Shown here: positions 1 through 24,195 of the stretch, piece by piece
Position numbering within the stretch: the stretch's first letter is position 1
Layout of the letters: each line of letters begins with the position of its first letter
IMG/VR virus record: IMGVR_UViG_3300027659_002652
Span: 1-24,195 of that record
From: a virus
Length of the DNA stretch: 24,195 nucleotides
Strand: one strand, 5' to 3'
The notes under the pieces: generated by a model
Told to the model about the DNA's origin: nothing
The model's database searches: none
Seen by the model: only the letters and a program-made list of their open reading frames with translations
Translations under genes and position numbers: made by a program

Positions 1-1762
1 TGCCAGTGATTAGCTCATTGATATACCCATCCATGTGATGAGCAATTGCACGTCCGGTCAGTGTGGTACTCTGCCCGATGCGCTTGTCAAAGAATCTGCA
101 ATGTGGGTTAAGAATAGCACCGTATAGGCTGTTCAAGTTAATCTTCTTGACCAGTTGACGTTTGTCCCAAAACTCTTGTTGCCCCTTGTCAGTGGCTTCG
201 TTGAGTTTGGCCTGCAGTTCTTTACGTTCCCGATACCAACGTGCCAGTAACCCTGGGATAACACCCTCTTTTTCATAGGTAAAGATTGTTCCATTGGCAC
301 TGAGAATCCAGGGTTGATTGCTGTCAAAAATTAATTTCCAAATTTCAGCACCGCTGTGTACACTCTCATTGCCGTCTTGCCAATCAATGGTAATCTCTGA
401 GCCACGTTGTTGTTCCATTACAGAAGTATATTCCAAACTACCAAACAAACCCTCCCAGGCAGCGGCAAAACTCATGCCATTTGCTTGGCGCTCCTTGATG
501 TATTTGTCTGTGGCACTTGGCCGGAGTTGTCCGATAATGGTTTCTGGGGCCATGTTAAGAGCACGGATAGCTGACGGGTAGAGCGAGTTAATGTCAACTG
601 ATCCAATCCATTCTGTGATACCTTTTTTGGGGTAAGCAACATAGGCACCTGCGGCTTGCGTGTCTTCATCATTGAGTCTTTCTTGACGGTTAGGAACTAC
701 TAATCCACGTTCGTGGGCTTCATTGATAATTGCCTGCTCTGTAACTGCTACAGCACCCATTGTGGTTTGTAGTAACACAGTGTTGGCGTGTGCTAGTTCA
801 CTGGCTAAATCCAAGAACCTGAGCTTCTTGTCGAGCTTGGCCAACAATAGTGTATCTTGTCGGTTGTACTCAATAAATGTTTTGAAGTTTTGATTGTACA
901 ATTGATCCAACGTACCTTCAAAGGCAGTTTTTCTTTCATCTAGTTCGTACTCGCCAATGGCATCCAGACTGTAACTGTGTCTTTCTTCATATGTGTACTT
1001 TCTATAAAGTTGCATGTAGTCTAAGTGCACACGACCAATCAAATCGTAGGTTTCATTCTCAGCACCAAAGCGTTCAAATATACGTTTTTTAGGCAATTGT
1101 CCCCAGAGACAAAACTTACGAGTATCATCCTTGCTTAACACTCTTGTGATCCTGTTAACTGTGTAAGGAATATCATAGCCCTCACTGTTCCACCCACTGA
1201 GAACATCTGCGTCATCTATTAGATCAAGGAAAGTCTTGAGCATGTCAGCTTCGTTGTCAAACAACATTGTGTTTTCAAAGTCAGCAACTAGCTCTTGTGC
1301 AGTCTCCTGGCTTAAATGCTTGGGAGGAATAGCCAGGGTTACTAACTGATCAATCCAGTTTAGATAAACAGATATTGCAGTAATTTTATTAAACGGGTCA
1401 GACGGTGGACTGAATCCTTTTTCTGGATCAAAATCCACCTCAATGTCAAAAAATGCTGTTTGTAGTTTGGGAGCATCCTTGCCAGCAAAGTTTTCTGCTA
1501 GACAACGAAATACTGGGTTAATGTCGCTTTCGTATATTTTTTTATTGCTATGTACTCGAACTTCCTTGCGGAACTCTTTGTTGTTCCGAGTACTAAATCT
1601 ACTAACTGGATTACCATAGATACTACGAAATTTTCCTCGGGCATCGTCGTAATAAAATATGTAATTTGCTGGATACTCTCGGTATTCTCTTAGACCGTTA
1701 ATACGTTCAACAACGTGGATTCGATCGTGTTCACGATCATATAATGCGTCTACATAGCTCAT
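1..1762 (-). CDS. 43: Family B DNA polymerase, T4 gp43-type (partial, C-terminus beyond left edge)
   Basis: This is the replicative DNA polymerase with 3'-5' proofreading. I translated the minus strand from ATG at 1762; the frame stays open to the left edge, giving about 587 residues, so the C-terminal third is outside the window. Visible motifs are Exo I (FFDIEVD, D106/E108, close to the T4 position), Exo II (GWNSEGYDIPY), Exo III-like (YNRQDT, where T4-type enzymes usually have a V or I after the D), polymerase motif A (DINSLYPS, about residue 390) and motif B (KKINLNSLYGA, about residue 540). Motif C (DTDS) must lie past the edge. The start overlaps the stop of the upstream gene as ATGA, so the two are probably translationally coupled. 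No other family fits this motif order. Confidence 0.95.
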   Translation of the reverse strand, partial: MSYVDALYDREHDRIHVVERINGLREYREYPANYIFYYDDARGKFRSIYGNPVSRFSTRNNKEFRKEVRVHSNKKIYESDINPVFRCLAENFAGKDAPKLQTAFFDIEVDFDPEKGFSPPSDPFNKITAISVYLNWIDQLVTLAIPPKHLSQETAQELVADFENTMLFDNEADMLKTFLDLIDDADVLSGWNSEGYDIPYTVNRITRVLSKDDTRKFCLWGQLPKKRIFERFGAENETYDLIGRVHLDYMQLYRKYTYEERHSYSLDAIGEYELDERKTAFEGTLDQLYNQNFKTFIEYNRQDTLLLAKLDKKLRFLDLASELAHANTVLLQTTMGAVAVTEQAIINEAHERGLVVPNRQERLNDEDTQAAGAYVAYPKKGITEWIGSVDINSLYPSAIRALNMAPETIIGQLRPSATDKYIKERQANGMSFAAAWEGLFGSLEYTSVMEQQRGSEITIDWQDGNESVHSGAEIWKLIFDSNQPWILSANGTIFTYEKEGVIPGLLARWYRERKELQAKLNEATDKGQQEFWDKRQLVKKINLNSLYGAILNPHCRFFDKRIGQSTTLTGRAIAHHMDGYINELITG

Positions 1763-2733
1763 GTATTAAGTGTGTCCAATTTTTTCTTAGCGTTAGCAAT
1801 TGTTATTATAAGGTCTTCACCCCAAGATTCATACCATTTAGACAAGATGTGTTGGTTATGCTTGGCAGCAGTGGCCAGCCTGGGAAAAATATTTTCTGTA
1901 TTTAGATCATACATTTTTTTACAAACTGCTAATATTTCAACCTGTCGATCTACAAGATTTTCCATTGTGTCGTAGCTATGATCAACTACATCGTCGAGTA
2001 CGTCAAATCCCATGTCTCTTAGATATTGGACTGCTCCTTGTACGGAAAACAACAACCAGGGGCGTGGGAGTTGCAGACACCGAAAAATCTTTTCACTAAA
2101 GGATATTACATGGTTATCATGCACGTATGTTTCCAAACAGACAGTAACTCTACTCTGCATGATTTGATCGGCAATGTTACCAGTTTCAATAAAGTTCTTG
2201 AAAGGTATTTGTTTGCGTAATACTTGATGTTCTTCGGAAAAAACTTCAAAGTGTTCACGGTAGTGGTGATCAAATGCTTCAACTTGAGTCAACCCTTTTA
2301 AATAAGGTATCCTTGCCAAACTCATGTTAAAACTAACATATCCATCGTCGATCATGCCTTGACGATGCAAAGCATATAGCCAACTTTGTCTAAATGCATC
2401 TGTGCGATTAATTAAACAATTGAATTGTCGTTTAATTACTTGATCTTTAATAACATAAGGGATATGCCACATACCATAAAAACTACTATTAGTCAATTCG
2501 TATAAGTTGGGGTCTATATCAACATCAACCAACGGCGAACTTATAATAATAACTTCTTTTCCGTAATTGGGAGAGTTGATAAATTCCTGATACTTAAACG
2601 CATCAATGAGTTCTCTTTTGAGTTGTGGATCTGCCAGTTTAATCAAATCATGACTAAGGTCGCGGCGATCGATATCTCGCACACGGTCAATAAAAAAGGA
2701 ATTAAACGTTTGATCTTTGAGTGTTGGATCCAT
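1759..2733 (-). CDS. Glycosyltransferase-like phage protein
   Basis: The product has 324 residues from ATG at 2733; an in-frame TTG just upstream is less likely as the start. The C-terminal half reads as a stretch ending in a phenylalanine-rich core (FSEKIFRCLQLPRPWLLFS) followed by YLRDMGFDVLDDVVDHSYD. That arrangement, a conserved K, a 'P-W-L-L-F' strand, 'L-R-x-x-G-F' and 'D-x-S-Y-D', resembles a phage glycosyltransferase group with a GT-B-like sugar-nucleotide half. The N-terminal half is unrecognised. There is no signal peptide or membrane helix. It sits between the DsbA-like gene and the polymerase and overlaps the polymerase start by four bases. The family call comes from remembered pattern similarity, and substrate and target are unknown. 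Confidence 0.5.
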   Translation of the reverse strand: MDPTLKDQTFNSFFIDRVRDIDRRDLSHDLIKLADPQLKRELIDAFKYQEFINSPNYGKEVIIISSPLVDVDIDPNLYELTNSSFYGMWHIPYVIKDQVIKRQFNCLINRTDAFRQSWLYALHRQGMIDDGYVSFNMSLARIPYLKGLTQVEAFDHHYREHFEVFSEEHQVLRKQIPFKNFIETGNIADQIMQSRVTVCLETYVHDNHVISFSEKIFRCLQLPRPWLLFSVQGAVQYLRDMGFDVLDDVVDHSYDTMENLVDRQVEILAVCKKMYDLNTENIFPRLATAAKHNQHILSKWYESWGEDLIITIANAKKKLDTLNT

Positions 2734-2752
2734 CAATTAATCTAGATGGGTA

Positions 2753-3063: not shown

Positions 3064-4121
3064 TGGTGTAAACCGCCAAACGTCATGACGTCGGTTAAGT
3101 GTGCTAGTTTGGTAGATGATTTTAAAAATTTATCATAGTTGATATTTTTTGGATCTGCCACGTCTAGCAACAAAAATTCCCTGTGATCTTGTAAGTGGCC
3201 CCAAGGCAAAATCCTTCCGTACTCAACCACATCAGCAGAATACTGTTTGCTTAAATTATAAAAATCCAACATTTGATGATAGTTGTCAGCCTGCACTACC
3301 ATTCGAGTATGCAATTGCATGCCGGTTTCTTTTTTCTGTGCTTGTAAAAAACTGAGATTTTCTAATAGATCTTCCCAAATGCCACCACGACGTAGTTGTT
3401 CATACACAGGTTTGGTAGAAGCATCAATTGTAATAGTAACTTTTTTTACTGGTATGTTATTGAGACGGTGCCATCTTGCCTTTGACAATAGTCCATTGGT
3501 TTGTATTTTTAATGCTACATTTGGAAAGTCATTCTTGTTGATAGAATTAATAAAACTCAACATCATTGGGCTGGCAAACACTTCCCCCGATGTGCTTAAC
3601 ATGATGTTAATTTCCTGATCCGTGGGGTGTGAAAACAAGTTGCGGGCCAGTGTGTTTCCCACGGTTATCATGTCCGCAAGGTCTTCATCAGCTGTGTTTA
3701 TAATCTTTGTTCGGCAACTTGGACAACTAAGATTACAGGTCAAATCCCCGGCTAGTGTTATTTCTTTGGGTAGTTGGTTGCTAGTAATTATATGCTGTAC
3801 AGTATCAACATCATTTAATTGATTGCTGTGCATAATCCCGCAAGTCTGCTCATTACAAAACTCGTAATCTCCATTGATGATGGATTCTTTGATCTGTGTT
3901 GAGTACGCATTGTTAACAATATTGGTCAATGAGTCTTCTAATATGTTGCCAACAATACTGGGCATCCAAGCGGAACAACTGCACAATCTAACATTACCAA
4001 AAAAATCTATTTCGGCAGACACAAACGGACTCAGACAAATTTTGCCCAATAATGATTTTTTTGGAAAACGCACAAGCTCGCCCTGAGCTTTGTAGTCGGG
4101 GTAAATGGAAAATACTTTCAT
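3060..4121 (-). CDS. Radical SAM protein with N-terminal SPASM-like cysteine region
   Basis: The product has 353 residues. The radical SAM cluster motif CNLSCPSC (C129, C133, C136; CX3CX2C) binds the 4Fe-4S cluster that cleaves S-adenosylmethionine. It is followed by strand-helix repeats typical of the partial TIM barrel (LKIQTNGLLS, VKKVTITIDAS). The first 95 residues carry C29, C47, C49, C89 and C94, with 'I-D-F-F-G-N-V-R-L-C-S-C' and 'V-G-N-I-L-E-D-S-L'. That pattern looks like a SPASM/twitch auxiliary-cluster region, which normally follows the SAM domain rather than preceding it. The ATG at 4121 overlaps the preceding stop as ATGA. Related enzymes modify peptides or sugars; the substrate here is unknown, and no obvious precursor peptide sits next to it. 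Confidence 0.85.
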   Translation of the reverse strand: MKVFSIYPDYKAQGELVRFPKKSLLGKICLSPFVSAEIDFFGNVRLCSCSAWMPSIVGNILEDSLTNIVNNAYSTQIKESIINGDYEFCNEQTCGIMHSNQLNDVDTVQHIITSNQLPKEITLAGDLTCNLSCPSCRTKIINTADEDLADMITVGNTLARNLFSHPTDQEINIMLSTSGEVFASPMMLSFINSINKNDFPNVALKIQTNGLLSKARWHRLNNIPVKKVTITIDASTKPVYEQLRRGGIWEDLLENLSFLQAQKKETGMQLHTRMVVQADNYHQMLDFYNLSKQYSADVVEYGRILPWGHLQDHREFLLLDVADPKNINYDKFLKSSTKLAHLTDVMTFGGLHH

Positions 4122-7100: not shown

Positions 7101-7852
7101 ATTCGTTCACCACAACCTGGGCATTCACCTTTGCGGATGTAAGTTTCTAGACTTTCGTTTTTGTTTTTGACACAGTTGGGATAGCGTTTACCAAACATGG
7201 TCTTCATGCCTTCTTTATGATAACCTTTCCAACAAGCTTCGTCTAGACTTTGTTGTGAATGATCACCGTGTGTTTCACACATACCACAGTCTTCGCACAC
7301 CATTTCCATCTCCGTGCTTTCGTTGTGCTTCTTCTTGCCTGCACAGTGAGCCCGTTGACTAAAGCCTCGGGGGTGACTGCAATTGATACTAGATTTGTAT
7401 TTTTGACTCCACTCTTCCTTGACAGTGTTCAATTGACCGGTGGGCCATTTAACTTGTACTGTTTTGTTTGGGTACTTGGCAGCAATTGTTTTTGCCACAG
7501 CAAATGCTTTGTTGCTTGTGAACTCTTTCCAGGGTCGGCCATCAATTACAACAGCAAACATGCCTTCGGGTTCACCTTCGCCACTTAAATCACGCTGTGG
7601 TTTTGCAAAGCCTGTGCGATTTGCGTGATAGTTGTTGTGCGCTTCGTCAAGAACTTGTCCTTGTTCTGTATCTAAATCAAACACTCCAAAACTGCGATCC
7701 ATGCCAGGAACTTCGGCTGACACTTGGTTGTCCCGGCCTAGAAATTTAATCTTTCCTGCATGTTCTGGATAGGCTTGTAACACCTGTTGCTTCCAAGCAT
7801 CCAGTGCTTGAAAACCGCTGTCGTTTGATTCAAAAAGATTTAACAAATTCAT
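4118..7852 (-). CDS. Giant mosaic protein of short Cys-rich and basic modules, candidate internal head protein
   Basis: The product has 1244 residues and no single recognisable fold. It starts MNLLNLFESN, a short leader with L-F-E. Modules in order: residues 1-150, globular; 158-196, Cys module (HPRGFSQRAHC, then CEDCGMC); 206-228, ACWKGYHKEGMK...PNC; 244-258, zinc-ribbon-like CPGCGERM; 264-295, CYHKVKSRYKVWPSAYASG; 320-390, very basic (GRASAAARKRRE); 395-474, globular; 475-480, QGVAEG linker; about 498-595; about 598-670, SH3-like (QVGDTVTYLGQKAKIL); 672-755, acidic; 756-825; 851-925; 950-1035, coiled coil; 1035-1170, Pro/Thr/Ser linker; 1175-1240, globular. I recognise several modules as recurring in environmental phage proteins, but not their functions. 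A structural or DNA-condensing internal protein is the best guess. Confidence 0.75.
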   Translation of the reverse strand: MNLLNLFESNDSGFQALDAWKQQVLQAYPEHAGKIKFLGRDNQVSAEVPGMDRSFGVFDLDTEQGQVLDEAHNNYHANRTGFAKPQRDLSGEGEPEGMFAVVIDGRPWKEFTSNKAFAVAKTIAAKYPNKTVQVKWPTGQLNTVKEEWSQKYKSSINCSHPRGFSQRAHCAGKKKHNESTEMEMVCEDCGMCETHGDHSQQSLDEACWKGYHKEGMKTMFGKRYPNCVKNKNESLETYIRKGECPGCGERMVAESHLHEKQDACYHKVKSRYKVWPSAYASGALVQCRKKGAANWGNSNESITQEEYDQLDENLKKWFSDKWVRFGPDGKIKGDCARGDDSEGKPKCLPQSKAHSLGKKGRASAAARKRREDPNAERSGPAINVNTKKKSNEGLAEKIDSRFRKTEWIPLPDALKILKHYGATIEEWGGHFHFAYYDREGVRKRIEDLTWNADDTRNVRLSILNQAIRELKAQQQGVAEGSLNEFVTPQATAQDPGLEREKDVDVIIFGRMPQDFTFNKVVQALEDVLPREYPPGSSHNTQGVPSSPAELKGWEIAKNGGAVVTTKPLSIAQKVVKEFQARGIKCRIDAPGLEEGLDDPWGDQGNFAGDKPVNIGGETVKPIQVGDTVTYLGQKAKILAQSKDRKHSRITIAKGMGGVTQDVLTRDLKRTGLNEFAPPGGDDREPDEEAILRQLAAQWWNGTEQQMARAQKTLAAMGWEIGQDESGDDDAGVFLIRAGDEHGDSYIAFNHSDLELNESKDVVHRIGLTVTDPNHPMVSKRGETVQKTVRVTGGNQEQAINRAIAHHRKKGYKVHDHHYIGTANSPAVKEEGPGPGPGAETGFGAEGSKKLGTINTELISRAWRENRPNVVLTFGKSGEYRLDRGMIRYLLGYYKALPDDNSKWYFIYETMSRLEKLVALLEKANLPNSGIPTPGQQELDLTEKKRPNDDLSSAGARDVDVQRALQRARAATPTASSDIGALVKQDLKSQEKTQQKLADIEADNQRQMDMLKKADSVNNDQQRAIRSLERQISKVPGATAPAKTEPTPAPKKSTVTPVAPAVEPARMPPMARPRPTIGNKVPADVSIPSISTPSISLPDPSTAVQSPSTAVQSPTMLQIPQGQQTILPAMTPQPASQYNTADAVDVDFRHLGAAPNLDNFDEPEEPQKRTGTYGEGIQETANDMVKFSIDGERAYDAVMDRFGHVIDWSDDSMTAPRNIWSRIKEIAHDFGGEASEEGSEFALGK
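4514..4558 (-). repeat. 21-bp tandem repeat in the Pro/Ser linker
   Basis: Two perfect copies of a 21-bp unit (4514-4534 and 4535-4555) are followed by three bases of a third. It is in frame and encodes two copies of a seven-residue unit (STAVQSP) at about residues 1100-1113 of the 1244-aa protein. The region is a low-complexity linker, so slippage duplication is the simplest explanation. Confidence 0.9.
6416..6430 (-). repeat. 15-nt in-frame QGVAE linker repeat, copy 1
   Basis: The minus strand reads CAAGGTGTGGCGGAA, in frame as Gln-Gly-Val-Ala-Glu (residues 475-479 of the 1244-aa protein), between two globular modules. Identical or near-identical copies occur at 11895-11909, 12093-12107 and 13298-13312. 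A 13/15 relative encoding EGLAE lies at 6665-6679 in the same gene. Confidence 0.85.
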
Positions 7853-8472: not shown

Positions 8473-8913
8473 TTATGCTCTTGCGTCCTTTAAGAAACTC
8501 TTTAGCTGCCACATGTACTTGCCGTGTGAATCTTGACGTTCTGCCATAAAGTTGGCAATGTCTTCACGCTTTTCAGCTTGTGCGGCTTCAAACACTTGCA
8601 TGACCAAATCTTTCATGGTCTGCGTGTCTGCCAATAATTCTTCTAACATGAGACGAGCACGTGGAACTTTTGTTTGTGCTGGTATACTTGACAACTCATT
8701 AAATCGTTCAAAACTACCTGGGGCATATTCATCAAGGGTACGAATGTATTCTGCAATCTTGTCCACGGCACCGTAGGCATCACCGTAAATTTCGGCAAAA
8801 AATTCATGCAGTTGACCAAAGTCTGGGCCTTCTACGTTCCAATGGAACATTTGTGCTTTTAAATAATAAGCAAAATTGCTGGCCAACAACTGTTTTAATA
8901 AATCACTTAGCAT
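8473..8913 (-). CDS. dps: Dps-like ferritin (DNA-protecting mini-ferritin)
   Basis: The product has 146 residues, a little short for Dps. The ferroxidase ligands are all present: H24 (in FHWNVEG), H36 (QLHEFF), D51 and E55 (VDKIAEYI). Their spacing of 12, 15 and 4 residues equals that of E. coli Dps H51, H63, D78 and E82. KAQMFHWNVEGPDFGQLH is a clear family signature. Dps proteins form 12-mers that oxidise and store iron, and some bind DNA. The short N-terminus has only two lysines before the first helix core, so DNA binding through an N-terminal tail is not obvious. It starts within the last 11 bases of the 60-aa gene, which suggests coupled translation. Confidence 0.92.
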   Translation of the reverse strand: MLSDLLKQLLASNFAYYLKAQMFHWNVEGPDFGQLHEFFAEIYGDAYGAVDKIAEYIRTLDEYAPGSFERFNELSSIPAQTKVPRARLMLEELLADTQTMKDLVMQVFEAAQAEKREDIANFMAERQDSHGKYMWQLKSFLKDARA

Positions 8914-9604: not shown

Positions 9605-10451
9605 TTAAATACTTAGACAGTGCGTCTACAAAAAATTCTGCTGTTTTAACTCCATAATGCGCACCATCTCTTCCAAGATCAAATTTGGGGAAAATATCAA
9701 TCACAGCATTGGTGGTAGTAAGTTTGTTAAAAAATAAATCTTGTTTCTGCGCTGGCAAAAACTCTGGAACAAAACTGTGTATTATTTTAGTATTGGTAGC
9801 ACATTGGTCCACCATCGATATACAATTAATAGTGTTATCTATGTCTTGTTCAACTGTGGCTTCTGGCAAAAAATGTATTAGTCTATTGTCGTCTGCAACA
9901 TTCTGCCAGGTCTGGTCAGGATTTGATTTAATCTCACTTTGAATGTTATCTGGCAATAAGTCAAAATCACACAGTCTAGGACAACTTGGCCAGCTGTTGT
10001 CCTTGATGCTATTATAAAATTTCTGCCAAAATTGTTCCTTAACTGTTAGCACATCTTCTTCCCGACGATTGATAAAACTCCATTGCAATATTAACATGTT
10101 TGGTTGTATAACATTTAGTAGCTCTGTGGCTTTACGTGCAATCCAATTATTGCTGGCGCCATCCATGCTAACATTTATGGTTTTTAAGTTAGATTTTTTT
10201 TCAAGCAAATATGGCCAGATATGTGTTCTAGGATTACCAACACCAACAGTATAACTGTCGCCAATACACCATACAGCATTGTGCAAATCATTGGGCCATT
10301 CTTCATCACGGAATCCACGACTATTGTATTGATATATTATTTCATGTGGATATTGTTTAAAATGCTGTTTATCCAGGCAATGGTCAAGTTCATCTATACC
10401 ACTATAGTAATAGAAGGAATTAATTTTTGAAGGTATTGTGAAAGACTTCAT
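9600..10451 (-). CDS. SGNH/GDSL-like hydrolase
   Basis: The product has 283 residues. Block I is GDSYTVG (nucleophile S66 in 64-70), preceded by a hydrophobic strand (AVWCIGDSY). A block II-like DGASNN follows. Block V is GRDGAHYG near the C-terminus, giving the D262-x-x-H265 pair. These support an SGNH esterase/acyl hydrolase fold, and the length fits. There is no signal peptide. The ATG overlaps the desaturase stop as ATGA, so the two enzymes are probably made together. Possible roles are removing or moving acyl groups on glycans or lipids; the substrate is not readable from sequence. Confidence 0.8.
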   Translation of the reverse strand: MKSFTIPSKINSFYYYSGIDELDHCLDKQHFKQYPHEIIYQYNSRGFRDEEWPNDLHNAVWCIGDSYTVGVGNPRTHIWPYLLEKKSNLKTINVSMDGASNNWIARKATELLNVIQPNMLILQWSFINRREEDVLTVKEQFWQKFYNSIKDNSWPSCPRLCDFDLLPDNIQSEIKSNPDQTWQNVADDNRLIHFLPEATVEQDIDNTINCISMVDQCATNTKIIHSFVPEFLPAQKQDLFFNKLTTTNAVIDIFPKFDLGRDGAHYGVKTAEFFVDALSKYLK

Positions 10452-11149
10452 CTAACGGAGGCAAGTTTTAACTTGTGTAATAGTACAATATACATCCAGC
10501 CTATGTCAAACTCCCACCAACGACGACTCAGTCGAGGGTTAGCAGGATCCAAATGATGGTTATTATGCAGGCATTCGCCACCAACAACAATGTCCCAAGG
10601 AACAATATTTCTACTTTTATCTTTAGTTTCTCCATTACGATACCCCCACCAATGTCCTACACCGTTGATAACACCAGCGGCCCAGAATGGAATCCATATC
10701 ATTTGTATACCCCAAACTACAAAACCCCACCAACCAAATAGTGCCAAGTCTATTAGTAACATAAGCATGATACCTAGTTTGCTGTGTTTGGAGTATATGT
10801 TTTGCTCCATCCAGTCGTTGGGTGTGCCTTGCCCGTATGTGGCAACCATGGCAGAGTCTTTGCTGGCTGAGTGATATAGCCCAGCACCTCGAAACAGCAC
10901 ACGCCAAATGCCATATACATGTGGGCTATGCGGGTCGCCTTCCGCTTCTGTGAATCTGTGATGTTTGCGGTGCACAGCCACCCATTGCTTGGTGACCATG
11001 CCAGTAGTAAGCCATAGCCAGGCTCGCATGAAATGTGCAACCACAGTATGGAATTCAACACCCCGATGTGCTTGGCTACGATGCAAATATAGTGTGACAC
11101 AGGCTATTGTGATATGCGTCATCACCAACGTTGCTATTATTGTTGTCAT
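10448..11149 (-). CDS. Membrane fatty-acid (acyl-lipid/acyl-CoA) desaturase
   Basis: The product has 233 residues. All three histidine boxes of the membrane di-iron desaturases are present: HRSQAH (23-28), HRKHH (60-64) and HNNHH (195-199), with the additional conserved histidine in NGVGHWWGYRN (H166). Hydrophobic segments at about 1-20, 40-52, 126-146 and 148-163 fit membrane anchoring. The type is delta-9-like (HRSQAHRGVEFH, HHRFTEAEGDPHSP), and it is shorter than usual at the N-terminus. It would introduce a double bond into host membrane acyl chains. Desaturases are known auxiliary metabolic genes in some cyanophages. It is coupled by ATGA to the SGNH hydrolase. Confidence 0.93.
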   Translation of the reverse strand: MTTIIATLVMTHITIACVTLYLHRSQAHRGVEFHTVVAHFMRAWLWLTTGMVTKQWVAVHRKHHRFTEAEGDPHSPHVYGIWRVLFRGAGLYHSASKDSAMVATYGQGTPNDWMEQNIYSKHSKLGIMLMLLIDLALFGWWGFVVWGIQMIWIPFWAAGVINGVGHWWGYRNGETKDKSRNIVPWDIVVGGECLHNNHHLDPANPRLSRRWWEFDIGWMYIVLLHKLKLASVR

Positions 11150-11153: not shown

Positions 11154-12491
11154 TTAAGCTAATCCAATCTTGCCTGGCGCCATTGGGCCCGATTCCACAC
11201 GTTCACCACCATCAAAGTAACGTATTTCAATGGGCATGTCCTGCCAATTTAATCTGTAGGCGGCCATGATGCGATGGTTGCCTTCGTTGACCCAAGCTTC
11301 ACCATTGTAGGCCACCATGATGTAGGGCAAGTATTCATCGTCGGGACTGCTACCCATTGGCGGCAACTTGCCAGTCTTTTCCATGTAGTCCATTAACCAT
11401 GCTAGGTCATCTCGACGCACATTACGTTGTTCATCGCGCATGCCAGGCAGTGAAGCTAATCGCATTACACGCACTCTGGGTGGTGCGCCACGCACACTGG
11501 CTGTTGTACTGCCCATGTAAGGAACACCGTAGCTGTTGCGACCTTTGCTTTGAGCATAATCTATTTTGTCTTGCAACCATTCTTCGTTGGGCACATCTAC
11601 GCTTAGTTTTGATTCAACTTTGTTGTTCTCAGACAACGAGCCTGGCGCTTGTCCACCAACCAATTTAATTAGATAACCTTGTTTAAAATAAGTGGGATGG
11701 TACATCACCACGTTAAACGTGCCATCATCATTCCACAATATCTTTACATCGCCGCCAGCGTCTACAATTTTACTTTTTATATCTAACACTGCTTGTTTAT
11801 TTTTGTTGGGACCGTACATGGCATCGCCAAGAGCCTGAGCCAACTGCAATAGATAAGATTTCTTATCATTGTCATCGGCGGCACCAGGTGCAAATTCTGC
11901 CACACCTTGCTTCTTATAGTAGAAACTATGAACATCTGTTTCTGGATCATACTTGACAACTAAATCACCAACAGTAAATTCGTCACCGTGTTCTTCAACC
12001 ATGTTAGCAAAGTTATTAACATCACCAAAAATATGTTCAATAACATCATCTTCTGTGCAATTACCTTGATATGATAGATTGGAATCGGAGCCTTCCGCCA
12101 CACCCTGTGCAAGAGCTTCTCTGGCCTGACGTTCATTTTCTACCTTGAATTTTTGCAGGGCTTGATTATCATTGATTTGACCACGGTCCAATTGTTGCCA
12201 AATTGACAAGTCAAATTTTAGAATTTTTCGTTGTACTGCTTGTGCAAAACTAATTTCATCATTGCCTCGGCCTTGCCAATCAGGTTTCTTGCCCCACACA
12301 ACTGATATAGAGCGGTCAGTGTTTGGGACGTTGATACGCATACGCTCACCATAAAACACATAAGTAAGTCCTTGCCAAGTAAAGTAAAGATCTCCATTAA
12401 CTGTTGTGCCCGTAGACCAGCCATGCTTTTTTTGCAAAGCACTGACTGCAGCCGGATCTGCGTTTTCTATAATGAATTCTTGTGCTCTCAT
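11154..12491 (-). CDS. CTS-tagged multi-module protein with ParB-like C-terminal domain
   Basis: The product has 445 residues. I prefer ATG at 12491 (GGGTGAACAA before it) over an in-frame TTG four codons upstream. It begins MRAQEFIIENADP, very like the T4 IPIII capsid-targeting peptide (MKTYQEFIAE/A), with a possible cut after FIIE. Modules: about 10-130, a helical and beta module (WQGLTYVFYGERMRI); 15-nt linker repeats encoding QGVAE at 12093-12107 and 11895-11909, flanking a module of about 60 residues; a following module of about 85 residues (LGDAMYGPNKNKQAVLDIKS); and a C-terminal segment with WVNEGNHRIMAAYRLN, which resembles the ParB/sulfiredoxin-type 'G-x-H-R' nucleotide-binding motif. 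Activity is unknown. Confidence 0.75.
   Translation of the reverse strand: MRAQEFIIENADPAAVSALQKKHGWSTGTTVNGDLYFTWQGLTYVFYGERMRINVPNTDRSISVVWGKKPDWQGRGNDEISFAQAVQRKILKFDLSIWQQLDRGQINDNQALQKFKVENERQAREALAQGVAEGSDSNLSYQGNCTEDDVIEHIFGDVNNFANMVEEHGDEFTVGDLVVKYDPETDVHSFYYKKQGVAEFAPGAADDNDKKSYLLQLAQALGDAMYGPNKNKQAVLDIKSKIVDAGGDVKILWNDDGTFNVVMYHPTYFKQGYLIKLVGGQAPGSLSENNKVESKLSVDVPNEEWLQDKIDYAQSKGRNSYGVPYMGSTTASVRGAPPRVRVMRLASLPGMRDEQRNVRRDDLAWLMDYMEKTGKLPPMGSSPDDEYLPYIMVAYNGEAWVNEGNHRIMAAYRLNWQDMPIEIRYFDGGERVESGPMAPGKIGLA
11895..11909 (-). repeat. 15-nt QGVAE linker repeat, copy 2 (one mismatch)
   Basis: The minus strand reads CAAGGTGTGGCAGAA, in frame as Gln-Gly-Val-Ala-Glu, followed by Phe-Ala-Pro-Gly. 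It differs from the other copies by one synonymous base. Confidence 0.8.
12093..12107 (-). repeat. 15-nt QGVAE linker repeat, copy 3
   Basis: The minus strand reads CAGGGTGTGGCGGAA, followed by GGC as in the 1244-aa gene, encoding Q-G-V-A-E-G. It lies in the same gene as copy 2, one module (about 60 residues) away. Confidence 0.8.
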
Positions 12492-12506
12492 TTGTTCACC
12501 CAAACA

Positions 12507-12911
12507 TTATGTTACTGGTCCACCTTCTACCCAGGCATCACAGGTTCGTTTGGCAGCACATTTAAATTTCAAAAACTTACAATATCCCAATTGTCCAGCA
12601 TCTATTGTATTGTGTGGATCTGATCCTGGTTCTTCGCCAATACCTTTTGCAATACAATCTTGCATGGATTCAGAGACATCAAAGGCTGCACAATTGCCAC
12701 AGCGATTTTGTTTTACTGATTCAATGTTGTCGGTGTTCCATTTGTCTGCAAGTTCTTGCCAGTATTCTTCGTTGGGCTCGTTAGGGTTCAACGGACCGTA
12801 GTGATATTCGTCAATGGCCTTTTGACGATTCTTTAGATTAAGCTCGATGCTTTGTGTAGCAGGCGGGCAGCCTTTTTCCATAGCTTCTAATAAATTAATA
12901 AAGTTTCTCAT
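12507..12911 (-). CDS. Cys-rich HiPIP-like small protein with capsid-targeting-like leader
   Basis: The product has 134 residues from ATG at 12911, which has AGGAAAG upstream and an ATGA overlap with the previous stop; a longer frame to 12941 lacks these signs. The leader MRNFINLLEAMEKG gives a near-perfect L-L-E/A site. The body has seven cysteines: CPPATQ, CGNCAAF, DC, YC, KC and TC, ending GYCKFLKFKCAAKRTCDAW. The C-terminal pattern resembles high-potential iron-sulfur proteins, which hold a 4Fe-4S cluster and carry electrons. Whether a cluster forms is not known from sequence. The segment KNRQKAIDEYHYGPLNP is a signature I associate with this phage protein type. Confidence 0.75.
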   Translation of the reverse strand: MRNFINLLEAMEKGCPPATQSIELNLKNRQKAIDEYHYGPLNPNEPNEEYWQELADKWNTDNIESVKQNRCGNCAAFDVSESMQDCIAKGIGEEPGSDPHNTIDAGQLGYCKFLKFKCAAKRTCDAWVEGGPVT

Positions 12912-14119
12912 TTTTTCTTTCCTGATTTCATATTGGCACACCAGTGTGCCATGCGTTGCCGTTCACCAGAACTGTTGGCAGCAATGCTACGCAGTTTGCT
13001 CACAGGTTGTTTGCAGTTCACTCCCACACGCTTGGCAAGTCCTTTGCGGCCGGGCTTCTTGCCATCAGCAAAGTTTTCACTCATAATCCAGGTGTCAGGA
13101 ACTTCGTGATATTTGTCTACCCACATGTCATGTAACTTTTGTCCGCTGATGCTGTGAGTTTTTGCAATACGTGTCATGATCTTGTCAATGCTGTCGTACA
13201 CTTGATCATCTGTGGCAGACTGTAATCGTTGTTTGCGGGCTATCAATGCTGCCTTGAGTTCTTCCACTGCTTGATTATCTTTGCTGTGGTCCATATTTTC
13301 CGCCACACCTTGTTCTTCTTTAACAGAACCAATATTTTGTGTTTTAAGAACTGCTCCTTGATAGCGTAGTTCTAAGTTAGAAAAGTTAATATCTCGTTTT
13401 TCTAAAAATTCAGTTATAAACTCTTCTGCCTGATGTAACTGCGATTTAGCATCACCTTTGAATCTGCCAGTTAAATTAAATTCTTTAGATTCTCCGTTAA
13501 TATTAACAATTGCAATTAATTTATTTGGATCAGTTTGATTGTCAGCACGAGCACCACCTGCTGCCGAAATTCCAGCAGCCATTGCTCCAGCACCTTTAAG
13601 GAAACCTCTACGACTCATGTCTTCCGCTATTGGTGTTATTCTACTCAATTCGTACATGACTTTGTTGCCGGTTTCTGCACGGAACGCACGGAAGCCCAAA
13701 GCCCTTGCATAACGCTGAACCAAACTGTCATACAGTCTTGCCCTGGTCATTGCTTTCCTTTGATTCTCGTCTGGTTTAACTTCTTTTGAGGCTGAGAAAT
13801 ATATTTTATTGGGCTTGTATTTTCCTTTTGCACCAGGCACCCGGTCAGAAACAAATGTTTCAACAGCACTTAACACCGTGGCAAACACACGCTGTTGATC
13901 ACCCTCACCTGTCTTTTCTTGACTGTTGTTTCTAAAGAACTCAACACTCCAGGCTTCCTCTTTTGTCTCTTGTTTAAATCCCTTGTTAAACATAATGCTT
14001 AGAAAAGTTCCGTCATCTAATCGTGCTATTGCGTCTACATCACCGTAGTCACCCTTTTCCCATCGAAGTATTTTATAGGGGTGGTCTAATGATTCTGTGA
14101 TAAATTCTTGTGATCGCAT
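12908..14119 (-). CDS. CTS-tagged protein with internal Tat-like signal and basic C-terminus
   Basis: The product has 403 residues. It begins MRSQEFITESLDHP (candidate cut after FITE). Residues 12-161 form one compact module (GDYGDVDAIARLDDGTFLSI, FSASKEV, LVQRYARALGFRAFR), known to me only as a recurring phage module. Then comes P-I-A-E (163-166), followed at once by a Tat-like signal: MSRRGFLKGAGAMAAG (168-183) with A-R-A before D193. Residues 193-262 are a small domain. Q-G-V-A-E (270-274) is one of the 15-nt repeats. After it come a helical module (275-345) and a very basic tail (DGKKPGRKGLAKRVG, AHWCANMKSGKKK). The start lies one base past the preceding stop, with AAGAG upstream. An internal start at M168 (13618) is possible but has only a close-set GGAAG. 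Confidence 0.75.
   Translation of the reverse strand: MRSQEFITESLDHPYKILRWEKGDYGDVDAIARLDDGTFLSIMFNKGFKQETKEEAWSVEFFRNNSQEKTGEGDQQRVFATVLSAVETFVSDRVPGAKGKYKPNKIYFSASKEVKPDENQRKAMTRARLYDSLVQRYARALGFRAFRAETGNKVMYELSRITPIAEDMSRRGFLKGAGAMAAGISAAGGARADNQTDPNKLIAIVNINGESKEFNLTGRFKGDAKSQLHQAEEFITEFLEKRDINFSNLELRYQGAVLKTQNIGSVKEEQGVAENMDHSKDNQAVEELKAALIARKQRLQSATDDQVYDSIDKIMTRIAKTHSISGQKLHDMWVDKYHEVPDTWIMSENFADGKKPGRKGLAKRVGVNCKQPVSKLRSIAANSSGERQRMAHWCANMKSGKKK
13298..13312 (-). repeat. 15-nt QGVAE linker repeat, copy 4
   Basis: The minus strand reads CAAGGTGTGGCGGAA, identical over all 15 bases to copy 1 at 6416-6430 although it is in a different gene, and again in frame as Q-G-V-A-E. Confidence 0.85.
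13544..13621 (-). other. Buried Tat-like signal segment
   Basis: Residues 167-192 of the 403-aa protein start right after P-I-A-E. They contain a twin-arginine motif (SRRGFLK), a hydrophobic core and an A-R-A signal-peptidase-like end before Asp. It lies in the interior of the protein, where a Tat signal would normally not work unless exposed by cleavage or by internal translation. Confidence 0.6.
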
Positions 14120-14120: not shown

Positions 14121-14834
14121 TTAACTCTTGGGTTGCATTAATTGTACAATAGCGGCATACTTGTCATGTCTATCCTGTAGACCTTTAAGACCACTGTTGA
14201 TGGGTTTGGTAACAGCCTCAGTATCGTTAAAGTTACTTACCTTGGGCGCCACACGATTCTGCCAAAACCATACTGCTACTTTGGCAGCTACATCTGGACG
14301 TTCAACAAGTTCTGGACGTTGTTCTAACGGCAACCCCAATGCTTGTCCAGCACGTCGGTAATTTTCACGCCCAGTAAGTTGTATATAACCCCGACCGTGA
14401 TAACGAGCACCATCGCCAGCTTGATTGTTGCCTAGTATCTTTGCTTTGCGTGGATTGTGCTTGGGGTCGTATTTTTTAAAATCCAATGACCCACCAAATT
14501 CTTTTAGACTAGAGAAGTTAGCAGTTTCATGAGCGCATTGTGCTACAAACTGCGCCAGTTCTTTGCCACGCATACCAGCGGCACGTGCTGTTTGTATTAG
14601 TATTTTTGCTTCGGGGCGCAGGATAGTCTGTGTCATTGCTTGTACATTGGGTGCTGATTGTTGTACAGCAGGTTGTACTTTTGCGGCAGGCGCAGTGGTG
14701 GGCCCGGGCTTGGCTTGTACCCCACCCAGGGCGGCAGCGCCAATGGCAGCACCGGCGGCCCAGTCTCGCCACCCTTCATCAATGTCGGTGTCTAGTAGTT
14801 TGTTTTCAATGATTGAAAATTCAACGGCCCGCAT
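14121..14834 (-). CDS. GH19 chitinase/lysozyme-like cell-wall hydrolase with capsid-targeting-like leader
   Basis: The product has 237 residues. The catalytic domain (about 68-235) is glycoside hydrolase family 19: CAHETANF holds the probable catalytic E103, GRGYIQLTGRENY (147-159) is the family signature, and PINSGLKGLQDR (211-222) is the late conserved block. Phage enzymes of this family cut peptidoglycan. The N-terminus is MRAVEFSIIEN, followed by DIDE/G (17-21) and a hydrophobic, Ala/Gly-rich segment (24-38) ending V-Q-A (39-41), which looks like a Sec-type signal placed behind a protease site. A Pro/Ala linker (42-66) then leads to the domain. It overlaps the upstream gene by 14 bases. 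It may act as an endolysin, as an entry lysin carried in the virion, or both. Confidence 0.9.
   Translation of the reverse strand: MRAVEFSIIENKLLDTDIDEGWRDWAAGAAIGAAALGGVQAKPGPTTAPAAKVQPAVQQSAPNVQAMTQTILRPEAKILIQTARAAGMRGKELAQFVAQCAHETANFSSLKEFGGSLDFKKYDPKHNPRKAKILGNNQAGDGARYHGRGYIQLTGRENYRRAGQALGLPLEQRPELVERPDVAAKVAVWFWQNRVAPKVSNFNDTEAVTKPINSGLKGLQDRHDKYAAIVQLMQPKS
14712..14774 (-). other. Buried Sec-like signal segment in the GH19 protein
   Basis: Residues 21-41 start just after D-I-D-E. Charged W-R-D-W residues are followed by an Ala/Gly hydrophobic core and V-Q-A before Lys. It could instead be a membrane-tethering or signal-arrest-type helix. Confidence 0.5.
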
Positions 14835-15201
14835 AACGATACTTTACAATGTAGGCCTTGTCTCTAGCAAGGTAAACATCATAGCTGCCAATGCCACGTT
14901 CACCAAACTGTGCTTGTGGAACTCGGATTTTGATTGCACCTATGGGCATATTCATCATGGTGTCGGGATGAGATAATACCACACCTTGATAGGGCTTGCC
15001 TTCGTATTTGACAATGATGTCTTCGCCATTGCGAACAACTTCGGCTTGTGGTTGTTGTACACGGATCTCAGGTTGATCGCCAGGCATGATTCCTTGTGCA
15101 TTTGCGCCCAATGCACCCAGTGCCATTGCACCAGCCGCTGCCGCCTTCTTAAGATTAAATTCTTCTAAAGTGGACATTGTAGTAAATTCATCGGCTCTCA
15201 T
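14821..15201 (-). CDS. Small protein with leader and Sec-like signal (126 aa)
   Basis: I do not recognise the C-terminal domain. The start MRADEFTTMSTLEEF has ACAGGAT upstream and the same leader type as its neighbours. L-E-E (12-14) is followed by F-N-L-K-K and an Ala/Gly core ending A-N-A before Q36, a textbook-looking signal peptidase I site. Residues 45-126 are beta-rich (GEDIIVKYEGKPYQGVVL, GAIKIRVPQAQFGERGIGSY, DVYLARDKAYIVKYRYAG), so a small secreted or periplasmic domain is plausible. It overlaps the GH19 gene by 14 bases, so the two may work together. With the leader removed it would look like an ordinary exported protein. Confidence 0.65.
   Translation of the reverse strand: MRADEFTTMSTLEEFNLKKAAAAGAMALGALGANAQGIMPGDQPEIRVQQPQAEVVRNGEDIIVKYEGKPYQGVVLSHPDTMMNMPIGAIKIRVPQAQFGERGIGSYDVYLARDKAYIVKYRYAGR
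15097..15159 (-). other. Sec-like signal segment behind a leader (126-aa protein)
   Basis: Residues 15-35 follow L-E-E. They have two lysines, a 13-residue Ala/Gly/Leu/Met core and A-N-A before Gln. This is the most convincing signal-peptidase-type end of the four such segments in the window. Confidence 0.55.
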
Positions 15202-15271: not shown

Positions 15272-16888
15272 TTAGTGGAACATCAAGTAACTGTCAATTA
15301 CATCCCGGCGGTTTGCGGCACGATCACCAGCACCAGGTTGTACAATAACGTTCCATTTTGGGTCAGGACCAATGGGCATTTTTAACATTTGATCGTAGGT
15401 AATAATAGTTTCTGGATCAACTTTGTATGTTTTTGCCAGTCTATCCTTGAACATTTCTAAGTTTGCTGGACTAGCAAATTGTGTACGCCCTTTGGCATCT
15501 TTGATCAAACTGTTACCTTTGCGGGCAATTAGATCAAAGAACATGTCCTTGGGCACAGTCACACCTTGCTTAACAACATTACCTTGGCCACGGTGTAATT
15601 CCACTTTCTTTTCTTCGCCGCGCTTGCTGCCTGAACTAAAGTTTATTATAAAGTTAGCGGGAGTTTTTCCTGTTGCAACGTCTCCCATTTTTGTGTAGGC
15701 ATAAAACTGCACGTCTGGATTGGACCTTGCAACATCATAGGCCAGGTCAAGATATTCTTTAGAAAAGAAGTCACCAGCATCGTGCCAACGAACAACTAAC
15801 TGTACACCTGCCTTGTCTGTTTTTGCTTTGATTGTTTTAATTTCTTCGTTGACTCTGGCATTATACCCAACTGGATCGTTGACCAGGAAGTTGAGTGCTT
15901 GTGCCGCACTCATGCTTGATGCTGGGAACATAACATACCCGCCCTTGCGAGCATAGCAGAACAATTGGCAAGATCCTGCGCCAGGGCAAGTTGCAATTTC
16001 TACAAAGTCGCCAGATCCTTCATCAACAACAATACCACTCAGTGCTGGCAATGTCAAGTCATAGATGATTTCGCCTTCAGTTTTACTTTTTTCCATTTTG
16101 GCATTGGTGCCAAGAATGGCTCTTGGGCGAGTAGTAATTTGTTTGGCCAAGTCGTCCAAGTCCCACTCAGTATTGGTATCATCTTTGGTAATAGCTTTGA
16201 TGTTGCTGGCATGAATGATGGGTGAAAATTTATCACGCTTAGTCTTGGTTCCAGTCTTGATACGATTGGCATAACCTTGTAACTCATCACGTGAAATAGT
16301 GCGACCGGGGGCATTGAGTTTTAATTCTTCTGACACGGCACGTGGCTTGGAATAGGCTGCACGTTTTTGTGCAATTCTGTTGCTGACACGGGGAATCACT
16401 GTGTCCAAGCGTTTGTTCAATGCAGTATAATCGTATCGGTTGGTTCTTACAGCATCTCTCACATACATCGATGTGTCAAGATCATCCACAACGTCGGGCT
16501 CGTTGAGCAAGGCTAGTTTTTTTGCTTGTGCACCCAGTGCATCTAGTTGTTGTTGTTTTTTTATAACAGCACCCAGCATGCTCAATTGAGCACGAAGTTC
16601 TGAATGACTTTGATCTGGCTGTGCCACTGGCGCCGGTTGTGATATTTGCTTTAATTGTTGTCCAGCACGTTGCGCTGTGTTTTTACGGAAGTCCTGTTCC
16701 CAGGCGGCAATTTCTGCGGCACGTTTTTGTTCTAGGTCTTGTCGGGCCTGCATCAACACTGCCAACGATGTATCCTTTAAGGTACCTTGTTCTTTTAATT
16801 CAGCGTCATCAGAACCCGAATTTTGTATGTGTATGGGCTTGACTTTGAAGCCACCTAGAGTTGTTTCTAATAGTTCTGTAAATCTCAT
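15272..16888 (-). CDS. GP88-like protein with coiled-coil N-terminus and leader
   Basis: The product has 538 residues. It starts MRFTELLETTLGGF (candidate cut after E-L-L-E). Residues 40-125 are helical and Gln/Ala-rich, probably coiled coil. The C-terminal half (about 225-538) matches the phage GP88-type family: IATCPGAGSCQLFCYARKGG with C301, C307 and C311, then RWHDAGDFFS (367-376), FYAYTK and a conserved end (WNVIVQPGAGDRAANRRDV, then SYLMFH). Three close cysteines in a C-x5-C-x3-C-Y-A frame suggest a metal or iron-sulfur site; the biochemical role of the family is not established to my knowledge. It starts by ATGA overlap with the preceding gene. Confidence 0.8.
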   Translation of the reverse strand: MRFTELLETTLGGFKVKPIHIQNSGSDDAELKEQGTLKDTSLAVLMQARQDLEQKRAAEIAAWEQDFRKNTAQRAGQQLKQISQPAPVAQPDQSHSELRAQLSMLGAVIKKQQQLDALGAQAKKLALLNEPDVVDDLDTSMYVRDAVRTNRYDYTALNKRLDTVIPRVSNRIAQKRAAYSKPRAVSEELKLNAPGRTISRDELQGYANRIKTGTKTKRDKFSPIIHASNIKAITKDDTNTEWDLDDLAKQITTRPRAILGTNAKMEKSKTEGEIIYDLTLPALSGIVVDEGSGDFVEIATCPGAGSCQLFCYARKGGYVMFPASSMSAAQALNFLVNDPVGYNARVNEEIKTIKAKTDKAGVQLVVRWHDAGDFFSKEYLDLAYDVARSNPDVQFYAYTKMGDVATGKTPANFIINFSSGSKRGEEKKVELHRGQGNVVKQGVTVPKDMFFDLIARKGNSLIKDAKGRTQFASPANLEMFKDRLAKTYKVDPETIITYDQMLKMPIGPDPKWNVIVQPGAGDRAANRRDVIDSYLMFH

Positions 16889-21709: not shown

Positions 21710-22426
21710 TTATTTAGTACGTTGACGTATGGGCACAGTCTTGGATACAAAGCCCGGAACCACCAAACTTATCATAGTTTCCCATTTACGATCGTTGTGA
21801 TCAATAAACGGGGTGGCGGTGAGATTTCGGCCGCGAATCCATGCGTGACCGATTGATGGGAAACTTGGACTTTGAGGTTTCACATATTTTAAATAAACAT
21901 CTAACCCAGGACTAGAGCGTATTTGCCCGTGACTGTTGTCAATCATAGATTTAACAGCAATTCGTTGTTCAGTGGTTAGGTTAATACTGCGTAGTTGTGT
22001 TCTATAAACATGCACAGGATTTTTAAGTAGCACAACATCTCTCTCATTTATTGCCAATGCCTGCGTCACTCGGATATTTTTAGGCTCACTGCGATGTTCA
22101 ATTGATTCAATAAGGTCAACATCATTGGTATACACTCGGAGGGTATTGCTTTCAACGTACAATTTGAATGCATGTTTGTTGGTCAACAAGAAGTCACACA
22201 TGGCATATAAGTCATTGATGTCTTCGGGAGTAACTGGTCTTTTGTTGGCCCAGCGTGAAGATGTGATCCACTCAATGCGTGAAGCAAGGTCCCGATGACT
22301 TAGGCCACGCAAACTCCCCGCTTCGTGCATGTTAAATGTACAGCAGTATTCCCAGGTATCAAAATACAGTCTGTCTCGTATTACTTGAATGGGTTGGTTA
22401 ATCAATTTGAATGTATCCTTGATCAT
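21710..22426 (-). CDS. Conserved phage protein of unknown function (238 aa)
   Basis: I cannot assign a family. The N-terminal part contains DRLYFDTWEYCCTFNMHEAG and LSHRDLASRIEWI. A helix EDINDLYAMCDFLL follows, then strands (FKLYVESNTLRVYTNDVDLI). The C-terminal part has LKYVKPQSPSFPSIGHAWIR and a basic end (VPIRQRTK). There is no signal peptide and no membrane helix. It starts 29 bases inside the end of the ClpA-like gene, an unusually long overlap that implies coupled translation. Its neighbours give no firm clue to its role. Confidence 0.6.
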   Translation of the reverse strand: MIKDTFKLINQPIQVIRDRLYFDTWEYCCTFNMHEAGSLRGLSHRDLASRIEWITSSRWANKRPVTPEDINDLYAMCDFLLTNKHAFKLYVESNTLRVYTNDVDLIESIEHRSEPKNIRVTQALAINERDVVLLKNPVHVYRTQLRSINLTTEQRIAVKSMIDNSHGQIRSSPGLDVYLKYVKPQSPSFPSIGHAWIRGRNLTATPFIDHNDRKWETMISLVVPGFVSKTVPIRQRTK

Positions 22427-24195
22427 TTACGCCTGCATGAAGTATGCCAGTATCGTTGTGTTTGATGTCAAATGTTATTGCATCGTTGTCTACACTTACT
22501 ACAATTTTAACATCTGACAGATTCTCAAACAACAATTTCTTACTCAGCGGCACTTTAACTAACTCATCAATTTTACGTGCCAATGGTCGTGCCCCCATTT
22601 TGTTATCGTACCCTTTTTCAGCGAGATAGTCAATTGCTTCTTCACTAAATGATAGTTTTATATTTCGATCTGCAACACTGGTCTTGAGTTCGTCAAGAAA
22701 TTTAACAACAATTTTCTTAATTGCCAGAGTGTCAAGTTTAATAAACTTACAAATTTTGTCAATGCGATTGCGCAATTCTGGTTTAAAGAAATCCTTGACT
22801 GCTTTATCTTCACTGCCAGTTTTTTCCAACAACGTGCCAAAACCAATGTTGTTGTTTTCATTGTCTTGTGCTCCCAGGTTACTGGTTAGGATAATAATAG
22901 AGTTTTTAATGTCAACTACTTTGCCGTTGCTGCCGGTAACACGAGCTTCATCTAGCATCTGCAAGAGAATGTTGCTGATATCTGGATGCGCTTTTTCAAT
23001 CTCATCAAACAAAATAACACTGAACGGATTCTTACTTAGGTCACTGATTAGTCTACCGCCGCCCACGTTACCATCTTCAAATCCAACGTATCCGGGAGGA
23101 GCTCCAATTAAACTGCTTAACGTATGCTTCTCTTGATACTCACTCATGTCATATTTTAGCAACTTCATATCCAGATTGCTGGCCAGTAGTCTAGCAAGTT
23201 CTGTTTTACCAGTGCCAGTTGGACCAAGAAATAAGAAACTTGCCATAGGTCGTGTTTTTGCACCAATACCAGAGAAGTTGATATAAATTCGCTCCAACAC
23301 CGCATCTACAGCATCACTTTGACCGTAGAGCTTTTGTTTGATGTTTAATTCAAGATTCTGAATTTTATCATTGGTTTGATTATCCAGTCGTTCAACTGGA
23401 ACACCGGTCATTTTTGATACTTGTTCTAAAATCATAGTACGATTGATGGTAACATTGCCTAAATCTTTAACACGTTCACGTGCACAGGCTGCATCTAACA
23501 CATCAATACTCTTGTCGGGATTTTTACGATCATGAATGAATCTATTGGCCAGGTCTACTGCAATGGTGATTGATTCTGTGTCGATCATAACATTGTGGAA
23601 CTGTTCGAGACGAGGACTAATGCCAATAAGAATTTGTTCTGTGATTTCTGTGTTGGGTTCATCGATGCCCAGTCGATAGAATCTACGCATTAATGCACGA
23701 TCTTTTTCAAAAGATTCGTAGAACTCTTCCCAAGTGGTACTAGCAATGACTTTGATATTACCACGTGTGATTGCTGGTTTGAGCATGTTGGCAAGATCAA
23801 GACTGCTGTTGCTACTAGATCCAGCACCCTTCATGGTATGCGCTTCGTCTACAAACAAAATACAATTCTTTTTAGCTTCCAATGCTGATATAATTTGTTG
23901 AAGTTTTTCTTCAAACTCACCACGGTACTTGCTGCCGGCTAGCAAATTGCCAACCTCTAGACTCCATACTTCGTGTCCTTTAAGGAATTCTGGCACACGG
24001 TTTGCGTGAATTTCCTGTGCCAACCCTTCAACAATACAGGTCTTACCAACACCAGGGTCACCAACCATAAGCACGTTGGCTTTGAAACGCCGGGCCAGCA
24101 CTGTGATCATTTCATGTAGTTCAGTGGCTCGACCAATCAACGGTTCTAGTTTATTCTTATTAGCTAAACTTGTAAGACTAGTGCAATGTTCTTTG
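22398..24195 (-). CDS. clpA: ClpA-type double AAA+ unfoldase (partial, N-terminus beyond right edge)
   Basis: The frame is open to the right edge; TTG at 24140 is an internal codon, because the 18 residues before it (KEHCTSLTSLANKNKLEP) match the start of a ClpA D1 domain. Counting from that TTG: D1 Walker A GDPGVGKT (27-34), pore loop KYRG (71-74), Walker B ILFVDEAH (94-101); D2 Walker A GPTGTGKT (306-313), pore loop GYVG (350-353), Walker B VILFDE (375-380), sensor 2 GARPL (516-520). No ClpB middle coiled coil separates D1 and D2. IGF (432-434) sits where ClpA has its ClpP-docking loop. It would unfold substrates and feed a ClpP peptidase, host or phage. Confidence 0.93.
   Translation of the reverse strand, partial: KEHCTSLTSLANKNKLEPLIGRATELHEMITVLARRFKANVLMVGDPGVGKTCIVEGLAQEIHANRVPEFLKGHEVWSLEVGNLLAGSKYRGEFEEKLQQIISALEAKKNCILFVDEAHTMKGAGSSSNSSLDLANMLKPAITRGNIKVIASTTWEEFYESFEKDRALMRRFYRLGIDEPNTEITEQILIGISPRLEQFHNVMIDTESITIAVDLANRFIHDRKNPDKSIDVLDAACARERVKDLGNVTINRTMILEQVSKMTGVPVERLDNQTNDKIQNLELNIKQKLYGQSDAVDAVLERIYINFSGIGAKTRPMASFLFLGPTGTGKTELARLLASNLDMKLLKYDMSEYQEKHTLSSLIGAPPGYVGFEDGNVGGGRLISDLSKNPFSVILFDEIEKAHPDISNILLQMLDEARVTGSNGKVVDIKNSIIILTSNLGAQDNENNNIGFGTLLEKTGSEDKAVKDFFKPELRNRIDKICKFIKLDTLAIKKIVVKFLDELKTSVADRNIKLSFSEEAIDYLAEKGYDNKMGARPLARKIDELVKVPLSKKLLFENLSDVKIVVSVDNDAITFDIKHNDTGILHAGVNDQGYIQID

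Follow-up and report, generated by a model that had tools for sequence, protein, structure and literature searches.

In E. coli, the ClpA unfoldase docks on ClpP by its IGL loop, which binds in hydrophobic clefts of the peptidase (PMC7707817), and the general ClpP-docking motif has been given as (L/I/V)-G-(F/L) (PMC8745299). Bacterial ClpP1P2 pairs, as in P. aeruginosa and C. trachomatis, consist of two ClpPs, one of which has an intact unfoldase pocket (PMC9823225). Among phages, seven Clp-family proteins including ClpA, ClpX, ClpS and a ClpP-like protein were reported in Atu_ph07 (PMC6102473). ClpA is among the common (core) orthologous groups of moraphages (PMC12619734), and phages encoding bS21 carry chaperones and Clp protease (PMC9723584); the passages on these genes contain no analysis of the docking loop, the ClpP pocket or ClpS. 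It has been suggested that jumbo-phage ClpA is a translocase or assembly aid, that ClpS feeds the host ClpAP and that ClpP is turned against the host (PMC7824862). In the literature searched, the phrase 'phage-encoded ClpP' was not found, ClpP was absent from the paper on phage Paride, and no description was found of a conserved complete Clp set with intact functional sites in the present clade. Phage ClpA of the kind described below is already known from phrog_4871, the moraphage core and the Atu_ph07 set. New are the conservation of the set, the contrast between the pockets of ClpP1 and ClpP2, and the presence of another ORF at the place where the closest syntenic genome, G024, has clpP1.

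The DNA analysed here (the window) is an entire viral record of 24,195 bases. It ends in a ClpA-like gene with the following features.

22398..24194, minus strand: clpA-like gene, 598 aa, 5' end open at the contig edge, N-domain (~160 aa) cut off
24039..24062, minus strand: D1 Walker A, GDPGVGKT (aa 45-52), by 81-sequence conservation
23907..23936, minus strand: D1 pore loop, GSKYRGEFEE (aa 87-96), by 81-sequence conservation
23835..23861, minus strand: D1 Walker B, ILFVDEAHT (aa 112-120), by 81-sequence conservation
23202..23225, minus strand: D2 Walker A, GPTGTGKT (aa 324-331), by 81-sequence conservation
23070..23105, minus strand: D2 pore loop, GAPPGYVGFEDG (aa 364-375), by 81-sequence conservation
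22986..23018, minus strand: D2 Walker B, VILFDEIEKAH (aa 393-403), by 81-sequence conservation
22839..22847, minus strand: IGF tripeptide at the position of the ClpP-docking loop (aa 450-452), by alignment, occurrence in 81/81 sequences and AlphaFold model
22500..22736, minus strand: C-terminal D2-small domain (PF10431), by Pfam

The Pfam domains AAA, AAA_lid_9, AAA_2 and ClpB_D2-small were found in the 598-aa ORF. Among NCBIfam profiles, ClpA ranked first (TIGR02639, 694.8 bits) against 587.1 for ClpB. The equivalog cut-off of TIGR02639 (993 bits) was reached neither by this 5'-truncated ORF at ~695 bits nor by three full-length relatives at 789-808 bits (ClpB profile, 639-667), and it is therefore labelled 'ClpA-like' and is no ClpA equivalog under NCBI's rule. 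In PHROGs the top match was phrog_4871, 'ATP-dependent protease' (726 bits, E 9.9e-218, profile positions 179-759 of 764), and with nearly the whole protein matched the ORF is assigned to this jumbo-phage ClpA family. The top PDB match was E. coli ClpA within ClpAP complexes (6uqe), covering query residues 4-571. ClpA and ClpC could not be told apart by the fold search (Z 31.8 and 33.5), and the assignment was therefore made by sequence, which identifies the product of the minus-strand ORF 22398-24194 as a predicted two-ring ClpA-type unfoldase. In a tree of 32 proteins comprising phage ClpAs, bacterial ClpA and other Hsp100 proteins, all phage ClpAs formed one group apart from the sampled bacterial ClpA and Hsp100 proteins (100/99), and the clade of the window was distinct within the tree (100/100). 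The phrog_4871 ClpAs of PA5oct, Atu_ph07, Phosso, RaK2, 121Q, CBB, SCTP-2 and XaC1 have the same domains and fall in the same tree group, but are only 41-44% identical to the ClpA of the window. Bacterial contamination was ruled out, as the ORF lies amid phage genes such as those for a phage DNA polymerase and an endolysin, and viral contigs of up to 353 kb carry its close relatives; the best bacterial match among the genome_contigs matches listed showed 43% identity. Where measurable, dN/dS among the ClpA relatives was 0.03-0.09, which argues for a working gene under purifying selection.

Conservation was analysed in the window ClpA and 80 viral relatives of 68-78% identity (n=81). Nearly all the functional residues were 90-100% conserved, including the pore-loop cores KYRG and GYVG and the Arg-finger and sensor-2 motifs, which are also present in the window ClpA. 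One of the six search patterns stopped at the I of IGF, where most relatives have RDNE and not QDNE, so that these were not retrieved with it. A distance of 279 residues separates the two Walker A motifs, no coiled-coil middle domain is inserted between D1 and D2, and only small gaps occur in the alignment with E. coli ClpA. The middle domain of ClpB is the part which binds DnaK. A ClpB-type disaggregase was ruled out on the missing middle domain, the presence of IGF and the higher score of the ClpA profile. The full-length relatives, which are of ~755-790 aa, lie in jumbo-phage contigs and begin with MQNNPEIE..., are likewise ClpA-like without a middle domain, and a Clp_N domain is present at the N-terminus in 30/30 related records. 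The first-pass annotation, which had read the ORF as a ClpA-like unfoldase with both AAA+ sites and both pore loops intact, with I-G-F in the D2 docking loop, without a ClpB-type middle domain and with its N-domain beyond the contig edge, thus agrees with these results on every one of these points. Neither of the two outcomes that would have contradicted it was observed, since IGF aligns within the docking loop and the full-length relatives are of ClpA and not of ClpB type.

The IGF of the window ClpA aligned with the IGL by which E. coli ClpA docks (6uqe) and fits the general docking motif in D2. Each of the three residues was invariant (81/81) while the neighbouring loop positions were variable, and a chance occurrence was ruled out by the 81/81 tripeptides in register. 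The AlphaFold model (mean pLDDT 79.9) shows disorder at residues 444-462 (pLDDT <50), which suits a predicted flexible docking loop.

No clpP, clpS or clpX gene is present within the 24,195 bases. Reading of the adjacent sequence had been proposed to find the N-domain and a clpP gene; the window holds neither, but both were found in the relatives. ClpP (PF00574) was present in 19/30 related records. It occurred, typically 40-75 kb upstream of clpA, in all 16 records with more than 62.05 kb of sequence on that side, and none of the ClpP-negative records reaches past 62.05 kb. Two types of ClpP were distinguished. The canonical ClpP1, present in 15/16 of the records extending past 62 kb, shares 54-66% identity with E. 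coli ClpP, and the Ser-His-Asp triad was found in 17/17 sequences. Its unfoldase pocket, at positions of the kind described earlier (PMC9823225), is intact: Y62, L114 and R192 were found in 17/17 and F82 in 16/17, with Y in the remaining one. Two ClpP1 representatives scored 317 and 256 bits on NF001368, above the cut-off of 249, and 305 and 241 on the equivalog TIGR00493, below the cut-off of 308.6. ClpP2, often present in addition to ClpP1, also retains the triad (13/13) and its model has the ClpP fold (Z ~25), but it shares only 23-27% identity with E. coli ClpP, scores 94 bits against the NCBI ClpP subfamily cut-off of 228, and has an altered pocket (Y62M, F82S/A, L114T, L189S/A, R192 lost). 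ClpP1 only was found in G009, G011, G012 and G013, and ClpP2 only in G017 (in 200 kb). The neighbours of ClpP2 mostly have no family match. In 15/20 loci compared, the clpP genes have as neighbour on the opposite strand a gene of 510-540 aa without a known family (e.g. L095:7255-8874). The ClpP1 of L092, L094, L095 and L109 has a 10-residue insertion past the catalytic His (MIHRVSSGTP against MIHQPSGG), a possible handle-region change.

ClpS was found above the Pfam cut-off in 14/14 large records tested. Its N-degron pocket residues (PMC8346999), N34, D35, T38, H66 and L99, were each present in 14/14. On the NCBI equivalog profile the 79-aa domain scored 75 against a cut-off of 149. E79 and K84, contacts with ClpA, were also found in 14/14. 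Full ClpX scored above its cut-off in 14/14 large records, and the zinc-binding N-terminus and an IGF were present in the 13 ORFs read. The clp genes do not form a single operon but are dispersed across tens of kb. A bS21 gene lies, by coordinates, between clpX and clpS in 11/14 large records (L116-L129, e.g. L116:4008-6582), and in encoding bS21, here next to clpX, these relatives are like the bS21-encoding phages (PMC9723584). Among ten named jumbo phages with ClpA, all ten had ClpP, nine had ClpS above the cut-off and four had ClpX. Atu_ph07 resembles the relatives of the window in having ClpA, ClpX, ClpS and a ClpP-like protein in one genome; it is one isolate whose genes were listed without functional-site analysis and in which ClpB was also reported (PMC6102473), while in the clade of the window the set recurs in 14 records. 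With E. coli ClpAPS, the phage set shares the D1/D2 anatomy, the docking-loop position, the ClpS pocket residues and the ClpP triad and pocket. It differs in sequence (ClpA ~42% identity, and ClpP1 as given above), in having IGF in place of IGL, in the extra ClpP2 of many phages and in the dispersed genes. The co-occurrence of a ClpP whose unfoldase pocket is intact with a second ClpP is comparable to the bacterial ClpP1P2 pairs; the phage ClpP2, however, has the low identity noted above.

Synteny of the window with the 342-kb record G024, the closest syntenic genome, extends from clpA through the DNA polymerase. There the gene between the homologue of the small conserved ORF 2753-3079 and the polymerase is clpP1, and the following ORF is present at this position in the window.

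1759..2736, minus strand: 325-aa ORF of no known family, holding the clpP1 position of G024 (between the homologue of ORF 2753-3079 and the polymerase)

This ORF has no homologue in the loci compared and is unrelated to clpP1, so the phage of the window lacks clpP1 at this place. It might have lost the gene or carry it elsewhere. As most relatives have clpP1 tens of kb upstream of clpA, which is beyond the contig here, a clpP1 outside the contig is likely. The rest of the window showed several other genes. The Radical SAM/SPASM protein (3060-4121, minus) is kept beside the polymerase in G024. The ORFs 4118-7852, 11154-12503, 12908-14119, 14121-14834, 14821-15201 and 15272-16888 (all minus) have a similar short N-terminus (MRxxEFIxE / MRFTELLE / MNLLNLFE), which resembles the capsid-targeting propeptide of T4; their products may be internal head proteins that enter the capsid, and later the host cell, together with the DNA. 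In 14121-14834 an endolysin/chitinase-like domain follows this N-terminus, and the protein is perhaps carried in the virion. A Ferritin/Dps-like protein (8473-8913, minus) has the PHROGs label DNA-binding protein. A fatty-acid desaturase-like gene (PF00487) lies here at 10448-11149 (minus), whereas in related phages its homologues are located close to the clpP genes.

The likely explanation of this locus is a phage-encoded ClpAP(S) protease in which ClpA docks on the phage's own ClpP, most likely ClpP1, with ClpX as an alternative unfoldase. The partner set of the window phage is taken from relatives with 68-78% identity in ClpA. From the anatomy, conservation, purifying selection and genomic co-occurrence we infer the assembly, docking, choice of partner and substrates of such a protease. 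ClpA would form a hexameric two-ring AAA+ unfoldase of the jumbo phage, its N-domain would recruit ClpS-bound or direct substrates and its pore loops would thread them. The D2 loops with their IGF would bind in hydrophobic clefts on ClpP, most probably those of the phage ClpP1. ClpA with ClpS, and ClpX as the alternative, would so give a phage-encoded ClpAP(S)/ClpXP protease, which may degrade selected proteins during infection, either host regulators and defences or aggregated phage proteins. Points against pairing with an own ClpP are the absence of clpP, clpS and clpX from the window, the other ORF at the clpP1 position of G024, the G017 record with ClpP2 only, the scattering of the clp genes, and that an E. 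coli-type host ClpP should also accept IGF.

In a rival reading, the phage ClpA docks the host ClpP through the conserved IGF and redirects it, a phage ClpP being secondary or absent in this phage. The fit of IGF to the general motif (PMC8745299) should suit a host ClpP, another ORF holds the clpP1 position in the window, and a canonical ClpP1 is missing from the available 200 kb of G017; set against them, the canonical ClpP1 of nearly all sufficiently long related records and the ClpP of every named jumbo phage with ClpA make this reading unlikely. The first-pass annotation had left the choice between own and host ClpP open. Pairing with an own ClpP is now much better supported, since the relatives themselves carry the genes for ClpP, ClpS and ClpX, and redirection of the host ClpP less so.

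An assembly-type role has been proposed for jumbo-phage ClpA (PMC7824862) and discussed for Atu_ph07 (PMC6102473). ClpA would then work without ClpP as an unfoldase or remodeller with the upstream J-domain protein, in virion assembly or the handling of aggregates. A J-domain gene is indeed found just upstream of clpA in 62/78 relatives and beside it in PA5oct and Atu_ph07; in Phosso it is one gene further away. The clpA of RaK2-type phages is flanked by virion genes, and the loop has drifted there to IGV/IGM/LGM. We regard such a role as quite improbable for the window, as its clade has IGF in 81/81, has retained ClpP1 with intact pocket and triad, has kept the ClpS adaptors, and its ClpA has no ClpB-type middle domain. 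That ClpP2 is a ClpP-type head-maturation protease, with the Clp genes serving capsid processing, is very doubtful: ClpP-like head proteases do exist, ClpP2 scores 49-52 bits on NF045542 and several database records name a phage ClpP 'head maturation protease', but ClpP1 and ClpP2 fall below the head-protease cut-off (120) and score better as ClpP, and T4-type S77 prohead proteases, present in 6/8 of the related records of greatest length and in all 4 of the named jumbo phages tested, disfavour such a role.

Returning to the phage-encoded ClpAP(S) protease, the docking loops of the named jumbo phages were compared with their ClpP clefts. PA5oct, Atu_ph07 and Phosso have IGF, XaC1 has VGF and SCTP-2 has IGY. 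Drifted loops were found in RaK2 and Vibrio 2.275 (IGV), 121Q (IGM), CBB (LGM) and pEa_SNUABM_47 (VGM), and all five of these phages have changed ClpP pockets, while the clade of the window has IGF with an E. coli-like pocket. Altered loops thus tend to pair with altered clefts. PA5oct, with IGF and a partly changed cleft, and XaC1, with VGF and a changed cleft, are exceptions to this trend, and most drifted loops belong to one clade; the covariation was not accepted as proof of pairing and is taken as a lead, a trend only. Tentatively, and as a little short of probable, we propose that the window phage belongs to a clade with a largely host-independent Clp system, comprising ClpA, ClpX, ClpS, a ClpP1 keeping the docking face and a ClpP2 which has lost it and could either join ClpP1 in an asymmetric barrel or act as a peptidase of its own. 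Co-evolution of loop and cleft in these phages may have made the phage pairs orthogonal to the host pair.

The variety of loops in related phages (IGF, VGF, IGY, IGV, IGM, LGM and VGM), with matching or altered clefts, is a natural experiment on the ClpA-ClpP interface, and makes the specificity between unfoldase and peptidase testable by swapping. The virus probably carries a machine of its own for protein degradation and does not only borrow that of the host. If this is true, large phages bring a complete regulated proteolysis including N-degron selection, beyond exploiting that of the host, and such phages could decide the survival of host and phage proteins during infection.
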